A stretch of DNA of 15,817 nucleotides from Streptomyces sp. NRRL F-5727 (GTDB taxonomy: Bacteria; Actinomycetota; Actinomycetes; Streptomycetales; Streptomycetaceae), in NCBI RefSeq assembly GCF_000719555.1, contig NZ_JOGX01000098.1, positions 1 through 15,817 of the forward strand, read 5' to 3'. Position 1 is the stretch's first letter. The number at the start of each line of letters is the position of its first letter. The notes under the pieces are model-generated. The model was not told where the DNA came from. It searched no databases and was given only the letters and a program-made list of their open reading frames with translations. Position numbers and translations under genes: made by a program. Shown in pieces: positions 1 through 15,605 of this stretch.

Positions 1-418
1 GCGCTGGGGCGGCGGGCGGCTCGGGGGCGGGCCGCTGGCCGGGGACGCCGGCCGGGGCGGCGGCGACGGGCGCGGCGGGCTCGGCGGCCTGCCACTGCTG
101 TCCGGCGCCGCCGTAGGTGTCATAGGGGTCGTACGCGGGCTGGGCGTAGCCGCCCTGGGCCTGGCCGTGTCCCGGCATGCCGGCGTAGGGGTCGTACGCG
201 GGCTGCTGGGGCGCCTGGGGCTGCTGCGGGGCCTGGGGCTGCTGGGGCTGGGCGTAGGGGTCGTAGCCGTACGTCTGCTGCTGTCCGGCGTACGGGTCGT
301 ACGCGGACTGCTGCGGGGGCTCGGCCTGCTGCTGGTACACCGGCTGCCCGTACGCGTCGTAGCCGATGATCTGCGGCTGCGGGTAGTACGGGTCGTACGG
401 GTTCTGCTGATCGTTCAC
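1..418 (-). CDS. LytR-CpsA-Psr (LCP) family protein, N-terminal cytoplasmic part only
   Basis: Partial gene: it starts with GTG at 418 and runs off the window at base 1, so 139 codons are visible. A GGAGGGG ribosome-binding site lies just before the GTG. The visible protein begins VNDQQNPYDPYYPQPQIIGY and is a low-complexity tail rich in Tyr, Gln, Pro and Ala with repeated YDPY/YDAY motifs, then turns Ala/Pro-rich. No catalytic domain or membrane segment is inside the window. The call rests on this tail, which I recall from Streptomyces LCP proteins, and on the place directly after nadD, where Streptomyces carry an LCP gene (PdtA, SCO2578 in S. coelicolor, reported to attach polydiglycosylphosphate to the spore wall). 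LCP enzymes transfer lipid-linked anionic glycopolymers to peptidoglycan outside the membrane. It lies 24 bp after nadD, probably in the same operon. Another Tyr/Gln-rich membrane protein cannot be excluded. Confidence 0.6.
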   Translation of the reverse strand, partial: MNDQQNPYDPYYPQPQIIGYDAYGQPVYQQQAEPPQQSAYDPYAGQQQTYGYDPYAQPQQPQAPQQPQAPQQPAYDPYAGMPGHGQAQGGYAQPAYDPYDTYGGAGQQWQAAEPAAPVAAAPAGVPGQRPAPEPPAAPA

Positions 419-6951: not shown

Positions 6952-8121
6952 TCAGCCGAGGACGACGAGGTCGTCGCGGTGGACGACCTCGCGCTCGTAC
7001 TCGGGGCCGAGCTCCGCGGCGAGTTCGCGGGTGGAGCGGCCCAGCATCCGGGGGAGCTCCCTGGCGTCGAAGTTGACGAGGCCGCGGGCGACGGGGCGGC
7101 CGTCGGTGTCCCGGAGCTCGACCGGGTCGCCGGCGACGAACTCGCCCTCGACGGCGGCGATGCCGGCGGCGAGCAGCGACTTCTTGCCCTCGACGACGGC
7201 GCGGACGGCGCCGTCGTCGAGCGCGAGGGAGCCCTGGGGGGTGGAGGCGTGGGCGAGCCAGAGCAGGCGGTCGGCGGAGCGGCGGCCGGTGCGCTGGAAG
7301 TACGTGCCGGTGTCGCGCCCGGCGAGGGCGTCGGCGGCGCGGCTGGCGGAGGTGAGGACGACGGGGATGCCGGCGGCTGCGGCGATCCGGGCGGCCTCGA
7401 CCTTGGTGACCATGCCGCCGGTGCCGACGCCGGCCTTGCCGGCGGAGCCGATCTCGACGTGGGCGATGTCCTGCGGGCCGCCGACCTCGGCGATCCGGGA
7501 GGTGCCGGGCTTGGCCGGGTCGCCGTCGTAGAGGCCGTCGACGTCGGAGAGGAGGACGAGGAGGTCGGCGCGGACGAGGTGGGCGACGAGGGCGGCGAGC
7601 CGGTCGTTGTCGCCGAAGCGGATCTCGTCGGTGGCGACGGTGTCGTTCTCGTTGACGACCGGCAGCGCGCCCATGGCGAGGAGCTGGTCGAGGGTGCGGT
7701 AGGCGTTGCGGTAGTGGGCCCGGCGGCTGGTGTCGTCGGTGGTGAGCAGCACCTGGCCGACGCGGACGCCGTAGCGGGCGAAGGAGGCGGTGTACCGGGC
7801 GACGAGGAGGCCCTGGCCGACGCTGGCGGCGGCCTGCTGGCGGGCCAGGTCCTTGGGGCGGCGGGTGAGGCCGAGCGGGGCGAGGCCGGCGGCGATGGCG
7901 CCGGAGGAGACCAGGACGATCTCCTTCTCGCCGCCGCTGCGGACCTTGGCGAGGACGTCGACGAGGGCGTCGACCCGGTCGGCGTCGAGGCCGCCGGCGG
8001 CGGTGGTGAGGGAGGAGGAGCCGACCTTGACGACGATCCGGCGGGCCTCGGTGACGAATGGGCGCGTCACGGTCTGCGGAGTCACGTCCGGTCGGTTCAT
8101 GTCCTGCTGCACCGTCGCCAT
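6952..8121 (-). CDS. proB: Glutamate 5-kinase (ProB) with C-terminal PUA domain
   Basis: The enzyme phosphorylates glutamate with ATP, the first and normally proline-inhibited step of proline synthesis. Counting from the ATG at 8121 (389 aa): VVKVGSSSL (30-38), VLVSSGAIAAG (69-79), VVNENDTV (155-162), FGDNDRLAALVA (169-180), LLSDVDGLYDGDP (190-202) and GTGGMVTK (233-240) are amino-acid-kinase motifs. Residues from about 300 to the end form the PUA domain. The start is uncertain: GTG 8148 would add nine residues and ATG 8100 would remove seven. ATG 8121 has AGGTGG eight nt upstream. The first ~25 residues are not conserved with what I recall of S. coelicolor ProB. It lies 74 bp after the GtrA-like gene, perhaps cotranscribed. 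Confidence 0.95.
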   Translation of the reverse strand: MATVQQDMNRPDVTPQTVTRPFVTEARRIVVKVGSSSLTTAAGGLDADRVDALVDVLAKVRSGGEKEIVLVSSGAIAAGLAPLGLTRRPKDLARQQAAASVGQGLLVARYTASFARYGVRVGQVLLTTDDTSRRAHYRNAYRTLDQLLAMGALPVVNENDTVATDEIRFGDNDRLAALVAHLVRADLLVLLSDVDGLYDGDPAKPGTSRIAEVGGPQDIAHVEIGSAGKAGVGTGGMVTKVEAARIAAAAGIPVVLTSASRAADALAGRDTGTYFQRTGRRSADRLLWLAHASTPQGSLALDDGAVRAVVEGKKSLLAAGIAAVEGEFVAGDPVELRDTDGRPVARGLVNFDARELPRMLGRSTRELAAELGPEYEREVVHRDDLVVLG

Positions 8122-8195
8122 CTCCGTCGCCACCTGGGCCGTCCTCACTCGCTGTTCCGGCGCCGTGCGCTCCCGGCACGGTCGCGAGGGGCAAT

Positions 8196-8633
8196 CTACG
8201 CGAGCCGGGACGGCTGCCGCTCCTCCGTTTCGCCCTCCGGACCGGCGTCCCGCGGACCGGGACCCCGGCTGACGAGGATCCGGCGGGAGATCACGTACGT
8301 GAAGGGGATGGCGACGACGGCGGCCACGAGTGGCGCGATCCGGTCGTCCGTTCCGGCCCAGGTGACGAGCGCGTACAGGCCGGCGCTCTGCACGACGTAG
8401 TTGGTGACGTTGGTGAGGGGGAAGAGGGCGAACTTCTTCCAGGTGGGGCGGGTGCGGTAGGTGAAGTACGTGTTGAGGAAGAAGGAGCCCACCATGCTGA
8501 GCAGGAAGGCGAGGGTGTACGCGGCGAAGTACGGCATCCAGGGGTGGAGGAGCAGGTAGCAGCCGAAGAAGGTGCCGGTGTTGATCCCGCCCACCACGCC
8601 GAAGCGGATGATCTGGCCGAGCTGGTCTCGCAT
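8196..8633 (-). CDS. GtrA-family membrane protein, 145 aa
   Basis: Small polytopic membrane protein with four predicted helices at about residues 8-30, 35-55, 70-92 and 98-118. Hallmark stretches are RFGVVGGINTGTFFGCYLLL (10-29), SFFLNTYFTYR (50-60) and a hydrophilic C-terminal tail from 121. GtrA-like proteins are thought to flip or otherwise handle polyprenyl-phosphate-linked sugars for glycosylation of envelope polymers, usually beside a GtrB-type glycosyltransferase. No GtrB gene is visible here. The start at ATG 8633 gives the complete first helix; its ribosome-binding site (GATGGG) is weak. It lies between proB and galE but is separated from galE by an 18-bp terminator hairpin. A role in the proposed envelope polysaccharide pathway is an inference from the neighbours. 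Confidence 0.85.
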   Translation of the reverse strand: MRDQLGQIIRFGVVGGINTGTFFGCYLLLHPWMPYFAAYTLAFLLSMVGSFFLNTYFTYRTRPTWKKFALFPLTNVTNYVVQSAGLYALVTWAGTDDRIAPLVAAVVAIPFTYVISRRILVSRGPGPRDAGPEGETEERQPSRLA

Positions 8634-8692
8634 GGGCCCATCAGATCGCCGAGAGATGAACGGGACATGCCGCGGGGGCGACACCCGCACGA

Positions 8693-8733
8693 CGAACGGC
8701 CCCCTCGTACGGTGGGTACGAGGGGGCCGTTCG
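8693..8733. terminator. Strong terminator hairpin after galE
   Basis: An 18-bp perfect inverted repeat (8693-8710 and 8716-8733) with a 5-nt loop ggtgg lies 17 bp beyond the galE stop. It should end the galE transcript and isolate it from the GtrA-like gene and proB. Its symmetry lets it work in either direction. Confidence 0.88.
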
Positions 8734-8749
8734 ACGATTCCGACGAATC

Positions 8750-9736
8750 CTAGACGGCGGCGCCGCGGCGGGCGGTCCAGCCGGCCCAGGCAGAGCCGAT
8801 CATGTCGCGGACGTCGTACCGGGCCTTCCAGCCCAGCTCTGCGGCGATGCGGTCGGCGGAGGCGACGACGCGGGCCGGGTCGCCGGGGCGGCGCGGGGTG
8901 ACGACGGGCTCGGTGGTGTGCTCGGTGATCTCGTTGATCAGGCCGACCATCTCGGTGACGGAGACGCCCTCGCCGCGGCCGATGTTGACGGTCAGGTCGC
9001 GCGGCTCGCCCGCCTCGGCCCACTCGGCGAGCTTGCGGGCGGCGACGAGGTGGGCGTCGGCCAGGTCCTCGACGTGGATGTAGTCGCGGATGCAGGTGCC
9101 GTCGGGGGTGGCGTAGTCGTCGCCGAAGATCCGGGGCGCCTCACCGGCGTCGAGCCGCTCGAAGACCATCGGCACCAGGTTGAAGACACCGGTGTCGGCG
9201 AGCTCGGGAGTGGCCGCGCCGGCCACGTTGAAGTAGCGCAGGCAGGCGGTGGCGATGCCGTGCGCCTGGCCGGCCGCGCGGACCAGCCACTCGCCCGCGA
9301 GCTTGGTCTCGCCGTACGGGCTGAGCGGGGCGCAGGGCGTCTCCTCGGTGACGAGGTCGACGTCCGGCATGCCGTACACGGCGGCGGAGGAGGAGAAGAG
9401 GAAGTTGCGCACGCCGGCCGCGGCGACCGCCTCCAGGAGGACGGTGAGGCCGACGACGTTCTCGCGGTAGTAGTGCAGCGGCAGCTCGACGGACTCGCCG
9501 ACCTGCTTCTTCGCGGCGAGGTGGACGACGCCGGTGACGGCGTGCTCGGCGAGCGTCCGGTCGAGCAGCTCGCGGTCGAGGGTGGAGCCGACGACGAGCG
9601 GCACGCCCTCGGGGACCCGGTGCGCGTATCCGGTCGACAGGTCGTCGAGGACGACCACCCGCTCGCCCGCCGCCGTCATGGCCCGGACCACGTGCGCGCC
9701 GATGTAACCGGCACCGCCGGTGATCAGGTACGTCAT
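8750..9736 (-). CDS. galE: UDP-glucose 4-epimerase (GalE), SDR superfamily
   Basis: The 328-aa protein interconverts UDP-glucose and UDP-galactose (some family members also UDP-GlcNAc and UDP-GalNAc) in the cytoplasm, using bound NAD. It shows the Rossmann motif TGGAGYIG (6-13), VVLDDLSTG (28-36), FSSSAAVYG (114-122), the catalytic YGETK (Tyr141, Lys145), LRYFNVAGA (166-174) and RDYIHVEDLADAH (217-229). I chose ATG 9736 (MTYLITGGAG) because a GGGGAG ribosome-binding site lies just upstream and the Rossmann fold begins there; a longer frame to 9790 is unsupported. It is divergent from the Stealth gene. This context suggests it supplies UDP-galactose for envelope polymer synthesis rather than Leloir galactose use, since no galK or galT is nearby. 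Confidence 0.94.
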   Translation of the reverse strand: MTYLITGGAGYIGAHVVRAMTAAGERVVVLDDLSTGYAHRVPEGVPLVVGSTLDRELLDRTLAEHAVTGVVHLAAKKQVGESVELPLHYYRENVVGLTVLLEAVAAAGVRNFLFSSSAAVYGMPDVDLVTEETPCAPLSPYGETKLAGEWLVRAAGQAHGIATACLRYFNVAGAATPELADTGVFNLVPMVFERLDAGEAPRIFGDDYATPDGTCIRDYIHVEDLADAHLVAARKLAEWAEAGEPRDLTVNIGRGEGVSVTEMVGLINEITEHTTEPVVTPRRPGDPARVVASADRIAAELGWKARYDVRDMIGSAWAGWTARRGAAV

Positions 9737-9772
9737 GCTCTCCCCACTCCCTTGTCGCTGAGCACCGCGGGA

Positions 9773-9820
9773 ACTCCGCCGCGGAGTCACACCGTACCTG
9801 CTGCCCGCCGCGACGTCGAA
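9773..9820 (-). promoter_or_regulatory. Putative galE promoter with adjacent inverted repeat
   Basis: On the minus strand TTCGAC (9820 to 9815) and TACGGT (9796 to 9791) are 18 bp apart, close to the TTGAC/TAnnnT pattern of housekeeping Streptomyces promoters. Just downstream, at 9773-9787, is a perfect inverted repeat actccg-ccg-cggagt that would overlap the start of transcription and may be an operator. Confidence 0.35.
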
Positions 9821-9962
9821 ACGCCTGCGTCCCGACGCGGGGGCGCACCCGCCTCAAGGGGGGCGCGTGACGGCTCTCGCGCGCCCCGGGGGTGTCCCCG
9901 GCAGGCTGCATACTGGTGCTGCTCACTCTCCGCATATGTACGTGTTCGAGGAGTAAACAGCA

Positions 9963-11720
9963 GTGCGAAATCCCGAGTCACCCCGGCTGCTGGGGGTCTA
10001 CCGCCGAGCCGTTCCCGACCGCGTGCGACGGGCCGTCGTCGCGCAGGTGGACGCCGATGTGCGCCGCCGCGTGAAGCTCCGCATCGCCAGCGGGACCGCC
10101 GCCGCCGAGCGTCTGCGCCGCAACCGGCTGGCCCGGCGGTACGCGGCGCTCACCGCCGGACCGGACCGTGCCGTGATCAGCGTCGGCCGGGAGCCGAAGG
10201 TGGCGCTGATCGCCGAGGGGATCACGCCGCTGCGCGCCCGACGGGCCAATCTGGAGGCGGTGCTCGGCGCGCTCGCCGCCGCCGGCGTCGCGCACTTCTG
10301 CGTCCCCGGCAAGTCGGACACCTCCTCCGCGGTGGCCGTGCGCGAGGAGGACCGGGCCGCCGTGCTGGCCGCCCTCGCCGCCGCCTGCGCGCGGGAGCCG
10401 GGCTACGCGACCCCGGTCGGCGGGAACGGCCCGGTCAGCCGCCCCTCCCAGCCCGGTTTCGCCGCCGGGACCTGGCACCGGCTGCGTACCGCCGCCGTCG
10501 TGCGGCTGACCTGGTACCGGGCCGACCCCACCCACCAGCTCAAGCTGGGCGACGCGTACGGCTGCGACGTGGAGTTCTGGCGCGAGGAGGATGGCGAGCT
10601 GACCGCGCCGCGCCCGGGCCGGGTCACCGCCGTCCTGCCCCCGCAGGGCCGGCTCGTGGACGCCCCGGAGTGCTGCTTCACGGACTTCACCGACGTCCGC
10701 CCCGGCGCCCGTACCGTCCCCGACGGCGCGCCGCTCGTGCCGGCCCGCGCCGAGACCGCCGTCGTCCGCACCGACCAGGTCACCTTCCCCGTCGACGTCG
10801 TCTACACCTGGGTGGACGGCTCGGACCCGGAGTGGCTGCGGCGGCGCGCGGAGTACGCCGGCGAGGCGTACCACGCGGAGGCGGCCAACGCGGCCCGCTA
10901 CCTCAGCCGCGACGAGCTGCGCTACTCGCTGCGCTCGCTGCACCTGTACGCACCCTGGGTGCGGACCGTCTTCCTGGTCACCGACGACCAGACGCCGTCC
11001 TGGCTGGACACCACCGTCCCCGGGCTGCGGGTCGTCTCGCACAAGGAGATCTTCCGCTCCCCCGAGGTGCTGCCGACCTTCAACTCGCACGCGATCGAGT
11101 CGCAGCTGCACCACATCGACGGGCTCTCCGAGCACTTCCTCTACCTCAACGACGACGTGATGCTCAGCCGCGAGGTGACCCCGGGGGACTTCTTCCACGC
11201 CAGCGGGCTCACCAAGTTCTTCCCCTCCCCCGCGCTGGTCCCGGTCGGCGAGCGCAGCCTCGACGACCCGCCGGTGGCCGCCGCGGGCAAGAACAACCGC
11301 CGGCTGATCGAACAGCGGTACGGCTCGGTCCTGGTGCAGAAGATGAAGCACATGCCGCATCCGCTGCGGCGCAGCGTGCTGGCGGAGATCGAGACGGAGT
11401 TCGCCGCCGAGTACCGCCGCACCGAGGCGAACCGCTTCCGCAGCGTCGACGACATCTCGATCGCCTCCTCGCTGCACCACTACTACGCCTTCCACACCGG
11501 CCGCGCGGTCCCGTCGACCGATCTGCCCTACGCCTACCTGGACCTCACCCACCCGTGGACGGAGACCCGGCTCGGCCGGCTGCTCGCCCAGCGCGACCGG
11601 GCGGTCTTCTGTGTCAACGACACGGTCTCCACGGAGCAGGACGCGGGCGGGCAGAAGGACCTCATCACCCCCTTCCTGGAGGCGTACTTCCCGGTCCCGA
11701 GCCCGTACGAGAAGCGCTAG
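9963..11720 (+). CDS. Stealth-family hexose-1-phosphate transferase, 585 aa
   Basis: All four Stealth regions are visible: CR1 [14 protein letters not shown] (275-288), CR2 about 315-412 with [30 protein letters not shown] and LYLNDDV, CR3 about 460-512 with [14 protein letters not shown], and CR4 [14 protein letters not shown] (571-584). Stealth enzymes, such as capsule polymerases of Neisseria meningitidis and the animal GlcNAc-1-phosphotransferase, transfer hexose-1-phosphate from a UDP-sugar to a sugar hydroxyl. A pre-Stealth domain (about 90-230) includes [13 protein letters not shown] and is shared with the GT4-Stealth protein. There is no signal peptide or membrane segment; the basic N-terminus could touch the membrane. 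The start is GTG 9963 with GAGGAG nine nt upstream. It is divergent from galE and convergent with the GT4-Stealth operon, with a strong terminator between. Donor and acceptor are not known from sequence. Confidence 0.9.
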
Positions 11721-11725
11721 GCGGT

Positions 11726-11767
11726 ACGCGTGAGGGGGGCGCCCGGGCGGGCGCCCCCCTCACGCGT
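11726..11767. terminator. Bidirectional terminator between the two Stealth genes
   Basis: A 19-bp perfect inverted repeat (11726-11744 and 11749-11767) with a 4-nt loop lies 5 bp after one stop codon and 11 bp from the other. The stem is very GC-rich and serves both convergent transcripts. Confidence 0.92.
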
Positions 11768-11778
11768 GTCCGGGTCGG

Positions 11779-14598
11779 TCAGTCCTTCTCGTACGGCGAG
11801 CGCACCGGGAAGTACGCCTCCAGGAAGGCGCGCAGCACCCGGTCCTGTTCGTCCAGCGGCACCTCCGCCTCCGCGGACTCGCCGATGCAGATGACGTCAC
11901 GGTGGCGGGCGGCGAGGAGGCGGCTGAGCGCCACGTGGTGCTTGTAGTCGCCGATGTTGGCGTACGCGGCGGAGATCGAGCCGGGCGACGCCTTTCCGGT
12001 CAGATAGCCGTAGTGGTGGTGGAGCGAGGAGGTGATCGACAGGTCGGTCCGGCCGCGGAACGGGGTCGCGGCGGTCCGCGCGGTCTCCTCCGGCCACCGC
12101 TCGGCGATCTCCGCCAGGACGCTGCGGCGCAGTGGGTGCGGGGTGTGCAGGAAGCCGTGGGTGGCGATCCGGCCGAACGCCTCCTCCAGGAGGACCTGGT
12201 TGTTCTTGGCGGCGACGAAGTAGCCCTCGGTCCCGTCGGTGACGTCGCCGGGCGGGACGGCGGTCGGCGAGCGGAAGAAGAGCGAGTTGCCGTTCGACTG
12301 GAAGAACTTGTTCGGTGCGAGGGGGCGGCCGAAGAACACGTCGTCGTTGATGTAGAGGAAGTGCTCGGCGAGGCCCTCGATGCGGTGCAGCTGGGACTCG
12401 ATGGCGTGCGAGTTGAAGCTGGGCAGCCACTGCGCGTCGGCGAAGAGTTCGCGGTGGCTCACCACCTCGACGTCGGGGTGGGCGGTGTCCAGCCAGGCCG
12501 GCGCCTGGTCGTCGGTGACGAGGAAGATCCGCCGGATCCAGGGGGCGTGCGCGGCGAGGGAGCGCAGCGAGTAGCGCAGCTCGTCGCGGTTGCGGAAGCG
12601 GACGTCGCCGGACTGGGCGTCGTCGGTGGCGAGCCCCTGCTCGCGGCGGGCGGCGTCGCGCTTGGCGCGCCACACCGGGTCGGTGTCGTCGACCCAGGTG
12701 TAGACGGCGTCGACGGGGAAGTCGACGTTCCACATGAGCTTCTTGGTGAAGACCGCCAGGGTCGGGTACTCCCGGCCGGCGACGGAGATCCGGGCGTCCC
12801 CGTCGAGGGAGGGCAGCCGGGGGCCGACGAGGGTGGTGCCGCGCGGGGCGGTGTACCAGCCGGTGTCGCCCTCTTCCTCGGACCAGAACTCGACGCCGCA
12901 GCCGTACACCGGCCCGTACCGCAGGGTCCGGCTGTCGCTGACGAGCGGTTTGAAGATCCGGACGCCGGCGACGTCGGGGGCGTGGGTGAGGGTCTCGGCG
13001 AGCCGGGCGCCGGGGGCGGCGGTCCGGGGGGCGACGAGCTCGGCGTAGACCGGCCGGCCGTGCAGCTCGGTGCCGAGGGCGCGCAGGGCGCGCTCCCGGT
13101 CGGGCTGCTTGACGGCGAGGCGGTGGCTGACGGTGGTGGGGTCGTGGAGCAGGACGTAGGGGACGCCGTGCCGTTCCAAAGCCTGCGCGGTCAGCTCCAG
13201 GTTGATCTCGCCCATGCGCCAGGACGGGACGTCGTCGCGGACCTCGGCGAGCCGGCCCGCCGAGCGGACCAGGGACTTGGGGTCCTTGGCCTGGAGGATG
13301 ACCTCGCGGGCCTTCTGTTCGTCCGTGGAGGGCGAGAGCCTGCTGATCGGCGCGGAGACGGCGAAGCTGCGGCTGCCGCCGGCGGCGACCCGGTGGGCGG
13401 CGCGGTCGGCGCGGGCGGCGGCGCGGGCGGCCGGGCCCTCGGCGTGGAGCGCGGCGAAGAGCTCGTCCCAGCGGGCGGTGACGACCTCCGGGGCGAAGCG
13501 CTCGCGGGCCCCGGCGCGCGCGGCGGCGCCGTAGCCGGTGCGCAGTTCGTCGTCGCCCATCAGCCGGGAGAGGGCGGCGCCCAGCGAGGCGATGTCGTCG
13601 GCGGGTACCAGCAGGCCGTCCACCTCGTGGCGGACGATCTGGGAGGGGCCGGTGAGGGTGTCGTACGCGACGACGGGGACGCCGGCGGTGAACGCCTCCA
13701 GCATCACCAGCCCGAAGGACTCGACGCGCGAGGGCATCAGACAGATCGCCGCCGTGGCCCACTCCTCGGCCATCCGGCGGCTGCGGCCGACGAGTTCGAC
13801 CCGGTCGTGCACGCCGAGGCCCTCGACGAGCCGGCGCAGGGCGGCCAGCTGGGGGCCGTCGCCGAAGATCCGCAGCCGCCAGCCGGGGTGCTCGTCGGCG
13901 ACCTCGGCGAACGCCTGGATCGCGTGGTCGAGCTGCTTCTCCGGGACCAGCCGGCCGGCCACCACGATGGTCTTCGAGCCGAGGTCGGAGCGGGGCCGGT
14001 AACCGTCGGGCATGGCGTTGGGGATGGTGGCGAGGCGCGGGGCGGCGGTGCCGAGCGACTCGGCGAACCAGTCGGTGGTCAGCTCGGTGAGCGAGACCAG
14101 GGCGTCCAGCCGGGGGGCGTGGGTGAGGAGCGGTTCGCCGGTGGCGCCGCGCAGCTGGGAGACCCGGTGCTCCTGGTGGACGACGGCGACCCCGGCCGGG
14201 ACGAGGGCGACGGCGGCGGCCATCAGGGCGGGGGTGGTGGTCACCAGGACGTCCGCGTCGAGCCCGGAGAGGGCGGCGGTCATCTCGATGTCGGAGAGCC
14301 GGTCGAAGGTGGGCTCCCAGGCGGTCTCGATCAGCTCGCTGGGCAGCTTGGCGAGGGCCTCGCACTCGCCCGGGGTGAGCGTGGAGGGGCGGACCGGGCG
14401 CGGCGAGCGGCCGGTGCGGTCCACCAGGTAGCGGATGGCCATCCCCTTCGCCTCCGGCAGGAACGGCTCCTCCTCCGTCCTGAACACGCTGAGGATCTCG
14501 ACCTCGTGACGCGGCATCAGCTGGGCGGCCTGGGTGTAGGCGGCCATCTCGGTGCCACCCATGGCGTCGCCCCAGGTGAGCAGGATGGTGATCTTCAT
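11779..14598 (-). CDS. Bifunctional GT4 glycosyltransferase - Stealth phosphotransferase fusion, 939 aa
   Basis: Two enzymes are joined in one chain. Residues 1-390 are a GT-B fold family-4 glycosyltransferase: MKITILLTWGDAMGGTEMAA at the start (donor-loop GGTE), VVAGRLVPEKQLDHAI (212-227), FGDGPQ (245-250) and the EX7E motif from Glu293 to Glu301 in SRVESFGLVMLEAF. A Ala/Arg-rich linker (385-410) leads to a pre-Stealth domain (about 465-600) with YGCGVEFWSEEEG, then Stealth CR1 FPVDAVYTWVDDTD (627-640), CR2 (668-763), CR3 [14 protein letters not shown] (818-831) and CR4 [14 protein letters not shown] (925-938). It could add a sugar and then a hexose-1-phosphate in turn, so building a phosphodiester repeat. 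ATG 14598 has GGAGG before it and overlaps the upstream stop by 4 bp (ATGA). No membrane segment is seen. The sugars used are unknown. Confidence 0.9.
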   Translation of the reverse strand: MKITILLTWGDAMGGTEMAAYTQAAQLMPRHEVEILSVFRTEEEPFLPEAKGMAIRYLVDRTGRSPRPVRPSTLTPGECEALAKLPSELIETAWEPTFDRLSDIEMTAALSGLDADVLVTTTPALMAAAVALVPAGVAVVHQEHRVSQLRGATGEPLLTHAPRLDALVSLTELTTDWFAESLGTAAPRLATIPNAMPDGYRPRSDLGSKTIVVAGRLVPEKQLDHAIQAFAEVADEHPGWRLRIFGDGPQLAALRRLVEGLGVHDRVELVGRSRRMAEEWATAAICLMPSRVESFGLVMLEAFTAGVPVVAYDTLTGPSQIVRHEVDGLLVPADDIASLGAALSRLMGDDELRTGYGAAARAGARERFAPEVVTARWDELFAALHAEGPAARAAARADRAAHRVAAGGSRSFAVSAPISRLSPSTDEQKAREVILQAKDPKSLVRSAGRLAEVRDDVPSWRMGEINLELTAQALERHGVPYVLLHDPTTVSHRLAVKQPDRERALRALGTELHGRPVYAELVAPRTAAPGARLAETLTHAPDVAGVRIFKPLVSDSRTLRYGPVYGCGVEFWSEEEGDTGWYTAPRGTTLVGPRLPSLDGDARISVAGREYPTLAVFTKKLMWNVDFPVDAVYTWVDDTDPVWRAKRDAARREQGLATDDAQSGDVRFRNRDELRYSLRSLAAHAPWIRRIFLVTDDQAPAWLDTAHPDVEVVSHRELFADAQWLPSFNSHAIESQLHRIEGLAEHFLYINDDVFFGRPLAPNKFFQSNGNSLFFRSPTAVPPGDVTDGTEGYFVAAKNNQVLLEEAFGRIATHGFLHTPHPLRRSVLAEIAERWPEETARTAATPFRGRTDLSITSSLHHHYGYLTGKASPGSISAAYANIGDYKHHVALSRLLAARHRDVICIGESAEAEVPLDEQDRVLRAFLEAYFPVRSPYEKD

Positions 14599-15605
14599 AC
14601 GCGTTCCTCCGCGCCGTCGGGGGCGCCTTCGAACCCGACGCAGGAGACGGCGAGCGCCCCGGCCGAGGTGATGTAGGCATGCACTCGGAGGAGCGAGCCG
14701 TCTTCCAGGGCGATGATCCGGAACGAGGTGCGGATCACCTGGTCGCGCCGGCGCAGGTCGGTGAGCCGGCGGCCGATCTTGAGGCCGGTGCGGCCCTGCT
14801 GGAGCTGGATGTCCCAGCGGTGGGCGCGGCGGCCGGAGACCATGCCGGCGAGCGGCAGGTCGAAGGCGAAGCGGTCGCCGTCCCACTCCAGCGGGGCCCG
14901 GAGGACCGCGCCGCCGCCGCGGCGGACCGCCTGGGCGGTGTACGCGGCGGGCGGGGCCTGCGGGGCGACGACCCGGCCGCGGACCGTGATCCGGTCCCAG
15001 CGGAGGGCGAAGGTGTCGAGTTCGGCCTGGTGGGCGGGGGCGCGGACCTTGAGGACGGCGAAGCCGTCGACGGAGCGCATCAGCCGGAAGTGGGCGCCGC
15101 CGGCCGGGTCGGGCGAGACGGGGGCGACCGGGCCGTCGGTCGCGGGGAGGGCCACGGCGGCGACGCCGGTGCGGGTCTCCTGGCCGTCGGGGCCGGTGAG
15201 GACGGTGGCGACCCGCCACAGCCCGGCGGTGAGGGCGAGACCGGGGTCGCTCGCGCTGTCGCCGTCGGGTGCGTCCGTGAAGCGGAGGGCGGTGGTGGCG
15301 GTGAGCAGACGGGTGCCGTCGCTCTGCGGTTCGAGCTCCAGCGGGAGCCGGTGCGTCCGTCCGCCGCGGGCGAGTTCGAGCCGGGCGGAGGCGACGGCGG
15401 TGGTGGGCGGCACGAGCAGGGCGACGTTGAGGGTGCGGCCGCCGAGGACGGAGAGGTGGAGCGGGCGGAGCGCGGGCCGGGGCGGGATCCCCCCGCCGAA
15501 CGCCGGCGCGGTGTGCAGCCGTTCGACCCGGCGGCGCATCCGCACCGCCACCCGCCGGGCTCGTTTCGCGGCACCCACCGCGTAGGGCAGCAAGGCGTCA
15601 CTCAC
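14595..15605 (-). CDS. Hypothetical beta-rich protein coupled to the GT4-Stealth gene, 336 aa
   Basis: I do not recognise a named domain. The first 35 residues are very basic (AAKRARRVAVRMRRRVERLH), without a hydrophobic core, so not a signal peptide; they could bind membrane phospholipid or an anionic polymer. Residues 45-155 and 170-320 read as two strand-rich sandwich-like units, the second with WDGDRFAFDLPL (241-252), RWDIQLQQGRTGLKIGRRLT (263-282) and a closing YITSAGALAVSC (311-322). I have seen similar stretches beside Streptomyces wall-polymer transferases, so an accessory role is plausible. GTG 15605 is the likely start (GGGA five nt upstream); the frame extends to 15800 but that part is promoter-like. 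The stop overlaps the next ATG as ATGA, indicating translational coupling with the GT4-Stealth enzyme. Confidence 0.72.
   Translation of the reverse strand: MSDALLPYAVGAAKRARRVAVRMRRRVERLHTAPAFGGGIPPRPALRPLHLSVLGGRTLNVALLVPPTTAVASARLELARGGRTHRLPLELEPQSDGTRLLTATTALRFTDAPDGDSASDPGLALTAGLWRVATVLTGPDGQETRTGVAAVALPATDGPVAPVSPDPAGGAHFRLMRSVDGFAVLKVRAPAHQAELDTFALRWDRITVRGRVVAPQAPPAAYTAQAVRRGGGAVLRAPLEWDGDRFAFDLPLAGMVSGRRAHRWDIQLQQGRTGLKIGRRLTDLRRRDQVIRTSFRIIALEDGSLLRVHAYITSAGALAVSCVGFEGAPDGAEERV

Follow-up and report, generated by a model that had tools for sequence, protein, structure and literature searches.

A GT4::Stealth fusion, a second Stealth protein and a beta-domain protein as a candidate wall phosphoglycan synthase in Streptomyces

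Introduction

Which polymer is built where a glycosyltransferase and a sugar-phosphate transferase share a single chain? The question is raised by one entire 15,817-base contig from the 7.9-Mb draft genome of Streptomyces sp. NRRL F-5727, hereafter the window, in which three adjacent genes encode a stand-alone Stealth protein of 585 amino acids (aa; 9963-11720, plus strand), a convergent GT4::Stealth fusion of 939 aa (11779-14598, minus strand) and a beta-rich partner of 336 aa without a Pfam match (14595-15605, minus strand). Our findings suggest that this trio is a wall phosphoglycan synthase in which the fusion would alternate between two reactions, the stand-alone Stealth protein would act in priming, the beta protein would be accessory and an LCP enzyme would attach the product; we give this reading a probability of about 0.55. 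A firmer proposition, which we consider likely, is that the product of the trio is a phosphodiester-linked wall glycan.

A first-pass annotation of the window had named a galE gene, a Stealth gene, a GT4-Stealth fusion, a beta-rich partner and a GtrA-like gene, and all were found in their places, with coordinates now refined. It had also attributed a phosphodiester-linked wall glycan to the Stealth and GT4-Stealth enzymes, a proposal that is strengthened by the teichoic-type fold of the beta protein, by wall genes at 14 of 22 fusion loci and by the presence of the same trio in a genome standing in for Streptomyces coelicolor. In that species, according to the available part of a review (PMC7831098), the LCP protein PdtA attaches a polydiglycosylphosphate to the wall and is required for spores to be sound and, in stressed cells, for growth at the tip. 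No polymerase for this polymer is named in the literature searched.

Domain architecture of the three proteins

The fusion comprises a GT4 domain (residues 1-388, DNA 13435-14598; Glycos_transf_1, E 2.5e-34), a middle part in common with the stand-alone Stealth protein, and a Stealth domain (residues 620-939, DNA 11782-12741). Its structure is predicted with a local distance difference test score (pLDDT) of 90.2 and a template modelling score (pTM) of 0.89, and its GT4 part shows the GT-B fold and the E-x7-E motif of GT4 retaining glycosyltransferases. Both Stealth proteins of the window contain conserved regions CR1-CR4 in order, with all four Pfam models above their cut-offs, and the catalytic E, N, D and R, as mapped in CpsY, are intact in both (39 of 39 module domains aligned). 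This alignment, like the comparisons of gene spacing and distance given below, was made without the fusion loci L008 and L013, which have broken gene calls or degenerate domains, L013 lacking the motifs. The region ahead of CR1 that the two Stealth proteins share (about residues 80-260 of the stand-alone one) gave no Pfam match.

In their conserved regions, fold and catalytic residues, the window proteins resemble the Stealth hexose-1-phosphate transferases, namely CpsY, GNPTAB and the meningococcal single-domain capsule polymerases. Stealth-family polymerases were believed to be single-domain proteins, as described in the part of a 2018 paper that was available, whereas one copy in the window is fused to a GT4 domain and lies beside a second Stealth protein. 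A parallel in organization is offered by the TagF-like two-domain capsule polymerases (CslB, Cps1B, Ccs2, Cps7D), which, in the accessible portions of the reports, likewise combine in one chain a glycosyltransferase with a transferase for sugar or polyol phosphate. The fusion differs from these in that its phosphate-transferring part is a Stealth domain, with no match to the TagF-like model PF04464 at E 0.001, in its N-terminal GT4 domain and in its separate beta partner. By sequence it is not a TagF-like polymerase, though it may act in a similar way.

The beta protein consists of an N-terminal helix, an Ig/FN3-like sandwich (about residues 44-189) and a beta domain of the TarK/TarL/TarS/RmlT type (residues 191-328, DNA 14622-15035). 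In its AlphaFold model (pLDDT 84.6, pTM 0.75), the predicted fold of this last domain matches the accessory domains of teichoic acid enzymes (N-terminal in TarK/TarL, and those of TarS and RmlT) over most of its length, which gives a protein without a Pfam family a predicted fold. The trio has a GT4 domain resembling that of TarM and a beta domain resembling those of TarS, TarL and RmlT. Unlike in the Tar enzymes and RmlT, the accessory domain of the trio is carried by a protein of its own, and the trio includes no enzyme for polyol phosphate. A Stealth domain in the place of TagF, combined with a detached Tar-type accessory protein, is the novel feature of this system, for which we found no earlier account in the literature searched. 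Neither a description of a GT4::Stealth fusion nor functional work on SCO2592 or SCO2593, the S. coelicolor genes discussed below, was found in that literature; the search did not use the terms fusion and GT4, and it left most subscription papers uncovered.

Distribution and conserved association

Stealth genes were surveyed in 150 Streptomyces genomes, the window genome included. Stealth_CR2 was detected in 58 of them, again counting the window genome (57 above the Pfam cut-off), and the beta protein in 15 at E 1e-5, including the window genome; all 16 places where the beta protein occurs lie within a few kb of a Stealth match. Stealth loci were then mapped with hidden Markov models (HMMs) built for this analysis. 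Matches below the Pfam cut-off (G010, G073:C253, G078:C65, G090 at 6.70 Mb, G112:C11 and G142:C80) and a contig-edge piece (G008:C723) were left out, and several stretches stop at contig ends, where neighbours can be missed.

The resulting 69 loci include 22 with a GT4::Stealth fusion, 46 with Stealth genes and no fusion, and one (L102) without a called Stealth gene. The beta gene was called at 21 of the 22 fusion loci and recovered by tblastn in the remaining one (L008), and a second, stand-alone Stealth gene was called at 19. At all 20 loci measured, the gene immediately upstream of the fusion is beta, encoded on the same strand, with a spacing that ranges from a 4-base overlap to 79 bases; in the window, the stop of the beta gene and the ATG of the fusion gene share 4 bases. 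Pairwise distances among fusion, stand-alone partner and beta proteins agree over 17 loci (r 0.85 to 0.91, 0 of 5000 shuffles in a Mantel test uncorrected for kinship). A quick tree of 114 Stealth domains places the fused copies and their stand-alone partners in different supported parts, and neither the fused nor the stand-alone label forms one clean clade (3 and 6 changes, respectively). Elsewhere a beta-like domain is joined to a GT4 enzyme (GT4::beta), and an HMM built solely from stand-alone beta proteins detects it with E 1.9e-7 to 5.6e-3. Since beta is detached in some loci and fused to GT4 in others, the parts trade places, as in one machine. One beta protein (P0102) and one fusion (P0272) are listed with a 2,010,573-base record of Streptomyces sp. 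BI20 that is termed a plasmid, and the set may therefore be mobile.

Within 6 kb of the 22 fusions we counted LCP genes at 7 loci, TagF-like genes at 7, any of LCP, TagF-like or TarIJ at 14, galE at 3, gtrA at 2, and obg or proB at 5; these counts are non-independent, because many of the loci are positional orthologs. Eight loci have no LCP, TagF-like or TarIJ neighbour: three of them (the window, L007 and L018) belong to the obg-proB interval, and for the other five (L004, L008, L016, L085 and L091) we found no link between the surroundings and the wall. A gene for a PIG-L type deacetylase adjoins seven fusion loci (L004, L015, L016, L019, L021, L085, L091) and hints at a polymer with an N-acetylhexosamine. 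As a fixed part of the system it was rejected, being found beside those 7 of 22 fusion loci, at 2 of 7 GT4::beta loci and at 1 of 39 other Stealth loci (L081, which is cut and carries a beta piece), so that the gene is optional.

An internal contrast is provided by a separate group of 13 loci with tandem Stealth pairs and no GT4::Stealth, beta or LCP gene within 6 kb (L080, L082-L084, L086, L098, L106, L110, L111, L115, L117, L118, L123). Twelve of these 13 have no wall marker at all within that distance, and the two copies of the pair form two clades of 13 in the Stealth tree.

The obg-proB interval as a variable wall locus

Near the window trio, beyond galE and gtrA, lies proB (6952-8148, minus strand), one border of an interval that ends at obg in other genomes. 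In the genome with the closest proB of the sample (G076, 97%), the gene order is that of the window and obg adjoins beta. We compared 40 stretches upstream of proB (L034-L073), of which five were chosen for their Stealth genes and the rest came from the highest-ranked proB matches on long contigs; L034 and L067 stop short of obg. TagF-like genes are present in 38 of the 40, usually together with TarIJ and glycosyltransferases, and gene content differs widely. By gene content, the stretch between obg and proB is a variable locus for wall teichoic acid in Streptomyces, in which the fusion module is one cassette, found in the window genome, G076, G129, G077 and G118. Such variation may be relevant to phages and toxins that recognise wall glycans. 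The wall glycopolymers to which the Umbrella toxins of Streptomyces bind are variable, as stated in the accessible text of one study (PMC13274773), and Stealth cassettes could be another source of that variation.

This setting also bears on the reading that the trio acts on a wall teichoic acid already present, which it would decorate or extend by building side chains of sugar phosphate on the ribitol phosphate or glycerol phosphate. TagF-like genes are the rule in the interval, the window genome has two of them elsewhere, and the beta and GT4 parts of the trio resemble decorating enzymes of the TarS/TarM type; moreover, in the portion of PMC13274773 at hand, a teichuronic-like chain of S. griseus is linked to the ribitol phosphate of a teichoic acid. 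A GT4::Stealth fusion would nevertheless suit alternating rather than single additions, and the sugar-phosphate polymer of S. coelicolor is described, in the source text available, as a glycopolymer of its own. We regard this role of the trio as unlikely.

Correspondence with Streptomyces coelicolor

One genome (G245) was treated as a stand-in for S. coelicolor, being the single one among 392 with a 100% match to the actinorhodin acyl carrier protein (next best 91%). It has five CR2 matches, two of which lie within the obg-proB interval, in a trio that comprises a Stealth protein of 579 aa, a beta protein of 319 aa and a GT4::Stealth fusion of 942 aa. Identity to the window proteins is 55% for Stealth, 34% for beta and 58% for the fusion. 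Beyond the trio follow proA, nadD and an LCP gene, the last of these 13 genes away. According to the available part of the review, PdtA is SCO2578 and is suggested to be co-transcribed with SCO2579, a nicotinate-nucleotide adenylyltransferase gene (PMC7831098). Counting genes from this pair assigns the trio to SCO2592 (GT4::Stealth), SCO2593 (beta) and SCO2594 (Stealth), and the printed roles of SCO2589, SCO2590 and SCO2592 fall on fitting genes: the first two are given as teichoic glycerophosphotransferases and the third among wall-teichoic glycosyltransferases in the parts of the literature that were available. By this count, the trio and the interval of the window recur near PdtA in S. coelicolor, as represented by G245. 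The two intervals differ in that the S. coelicolor type also contains GT2::TagF genes and has neither galE nor gtrA.

GalE, GtrA and the nadD-linked LCP gene

The window reads, on the minus strand unless marked, LCP N-terminus, nadD (443-1060), an M48 peptidase gene (plus), genes without a recognised family, proA, proB, gtrA, galE, Stealth (plus), GT4::Stealth and beta. The first-pass annotation had combined GalE, GtrA, both Stealth proteins and the LCP gene into one dedicated pathway. All of these genes are indeed found on a single contig, a galE gene with 82% identity comes after the fusion at another site (L022), and Stealth and GtrA genes are reported together in one gene cluster of Actinoplanes missouriensis, in the part of PMC13390465 that was available. 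The distribution of galE (8750-9736, minus strand; Epimerase, E 3.1e-57) and gtrA (8196-8633, minus strand; a GtrA-type membrane protein, PF04138, E 4.3e-22) speaks against such a pathway. Both genes (with up to 91% and up to 82% identity, respectively) occur at the obg-proB site in Stealth-less cassettes that carry GtrB and GT2::TagF genes (L039, L040, L049-L052, L055); both are absent from the S. coelicolor-type interval, and they lie near the fusion at 3 and 2 of 22 loci. GalE, a UDP-hexose 4-epimerase, was accordingly set aside as a dedicated sugar supplier, and GtrA as an exporter of the trio's polymer: in other cassettes a GtrB gene accompanies gtrA, while at the window locus no GtrB was found, the best GtrB-like match of the genome being on contig C60.

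The LCP gene was claimed to start at 418. Its N-terminal 139 aa are indeed present after nadD, in the pdtA position (1-418, minus strand, no Pfam match), but the gene is cut at the contig end and the LCP domain lies outside the window; it is seen in the nadD-linked genes of relatives and at the end of contig C7. In the closest sampled relative, one stretch after nadD matches the window N-terminus and then the LCP open frame at the end of C7. By sequence match, the gene is very likely split between window 1-418 and the end of C7 (L136), and its low-complexity N-terminus may have caused the assembly break. Nearness of this gene to the trio was rejected as more than weak evidence, because all 4 relatives checked have nadD-LCP, among them G098, in which Stealth gave no match. 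The proposed link to PdtA has better support from the S. coelicolor stand-in, with nadD as the anchor of synteny to SCO2579-SCO2578, than from the window contig, where nearness alone says little; the nadD-linked gene occurs both with and without Stealth. Taken as one dedicated pathway, the full gene set is very improbable.

Proposed mechanism and product

The synthase reading builds on the domains, predicted folds, catalytic residues, conserved association and contexts described above, from which we infer the donors, the order of steps, the product and the roles of the Stealth copies and of the beta protein. The GT4 domain of the fusion would form an alpha linkage in adding a hexose, the Stealth domain of the same chain would add a hexose-1-phosphate, and alternation of the two steps would yield a poly(disaccharide phosphate). 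In the first-pass proposal, the sugar added by GT4 would be Gal and the unit added by Stealth GlcNAc-1-P. The stand-alone Stealth protein would start the chain or hand over the first sugar phosphate. The beta protein would serve the fusion as a built-in accessory domain serves TarL, TarS or RmlT, in enzyme assembly or in holding the polymer, and an LCP enzyme would attach the finished chain to peptidoglycan. For S. coelicolor, the predicted product is the known polydiglycosylphosphate, 6)-alpha-Gal-(1-6)-alpha-GlcNAc-1-P (Gal, galactose; GlcNAc, N-acetylglucosamine), attached by PdtA; the polymer of the window strain would be identical or related to it.

The predicted linkage type is relevant here. 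GT2 enzymes have a GT-A fold. In the two-domain capsule polymerases, as far as the available part of the capsule study goes, a TarM-like GT-B domain goes with alpha linkages and a GT-A domain with beta linkages. By that rule, the alpha-linked S. coelicolor polymer suits the GT4::Stealth fusion and not the GT2::TagF enzymes encoded in that interval; this match is an argument from enzyme kinds, not from sugars. It weighs against the reading that the trio makes another phosphodiester glycan, such as exopolysaccharide or spore material, and that the polydiglycosylphosphate of S. coelicolor comes from the GT2::TagF pair SCO2589-2590 or from a cluster of the SCO6021-6024 type. In favour of that reading, GT::TagF-like fusions make capsule poly(oligosaccharide phosphate), in the source portions available, and a second Stealth cluster with GT4::beta adjoins an LCP gene. 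Many sources also label such proteins exopolysaccharide phosphotransferases, and the accessible part of PMC13390465 places a Stealth gene in the A. missouriensis cluster studied for exopolysaccharide. Against it, other LCP proteins could not stand in for PdtA, in the available text of the review (PMC7831098). We judge this reading to be improbable.

Candidates for the polydiglycosylphosphate synthase are thereby narrowed to three adjacent S. coelicolor genes, with two rival sets named. We tentatively propose, as a possibility somewhat short of even odds, that SCO2592-SCO2594 and their counterparts, the window trio included, are the Streptomyces polydiglycosylphosphate synthase. They would represent a new class of bifunctional wall-polymer polymerases in which Stealth replaces TagF. 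The cassette that encodes them would be movable, exchanging into loci for teichoic acid and altering the cell-surface polymer from one species to the next.

Other Stealth loci and features of the window genome

A further site of Stealth genes adjoins an LCP gene, and fadB and thiolase genes follow where the stretch reaches (L006, L009, L010, L015, L017, L019-L021, L023, L089, L092, L099, L103, L114, L124). Its content is Stealth-beta-GT4::Stealth in some loci and, in others, two or three Stealth genes, mostly accompanied by GT4::beta; its LCP gene is present at 7 of the 22 fusion loci. In the S. coelicolor stand-in, the remaining three CR2 matches belong to one cluster, which also contains GT4::beta and a PIG-L type gene and adjoins an LCP gene. 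The triple clusters contain a highly diverged Stealth copy (L154:9853-11445, and one copy each in L089, L099, L103 and L114); that of L154 lacks the active-site N, D, D and R and may, by its residues, be a pseudoenzyme.

Within the 7.9-Mb draft genome, PF17101 and PF11380 match only the two Stealth genes of the window, and the stand-alone one is 93% identical to a protein of S. filamentosus. Third-position G+C is 0.90-0.96 in the galE, both Stealth and beta frames and 0.79 in the over-long gtrA frame. The same genome has a second wall locus on contig C42 (L126), with two GT2::TagF genes and a GT4::beta gene.
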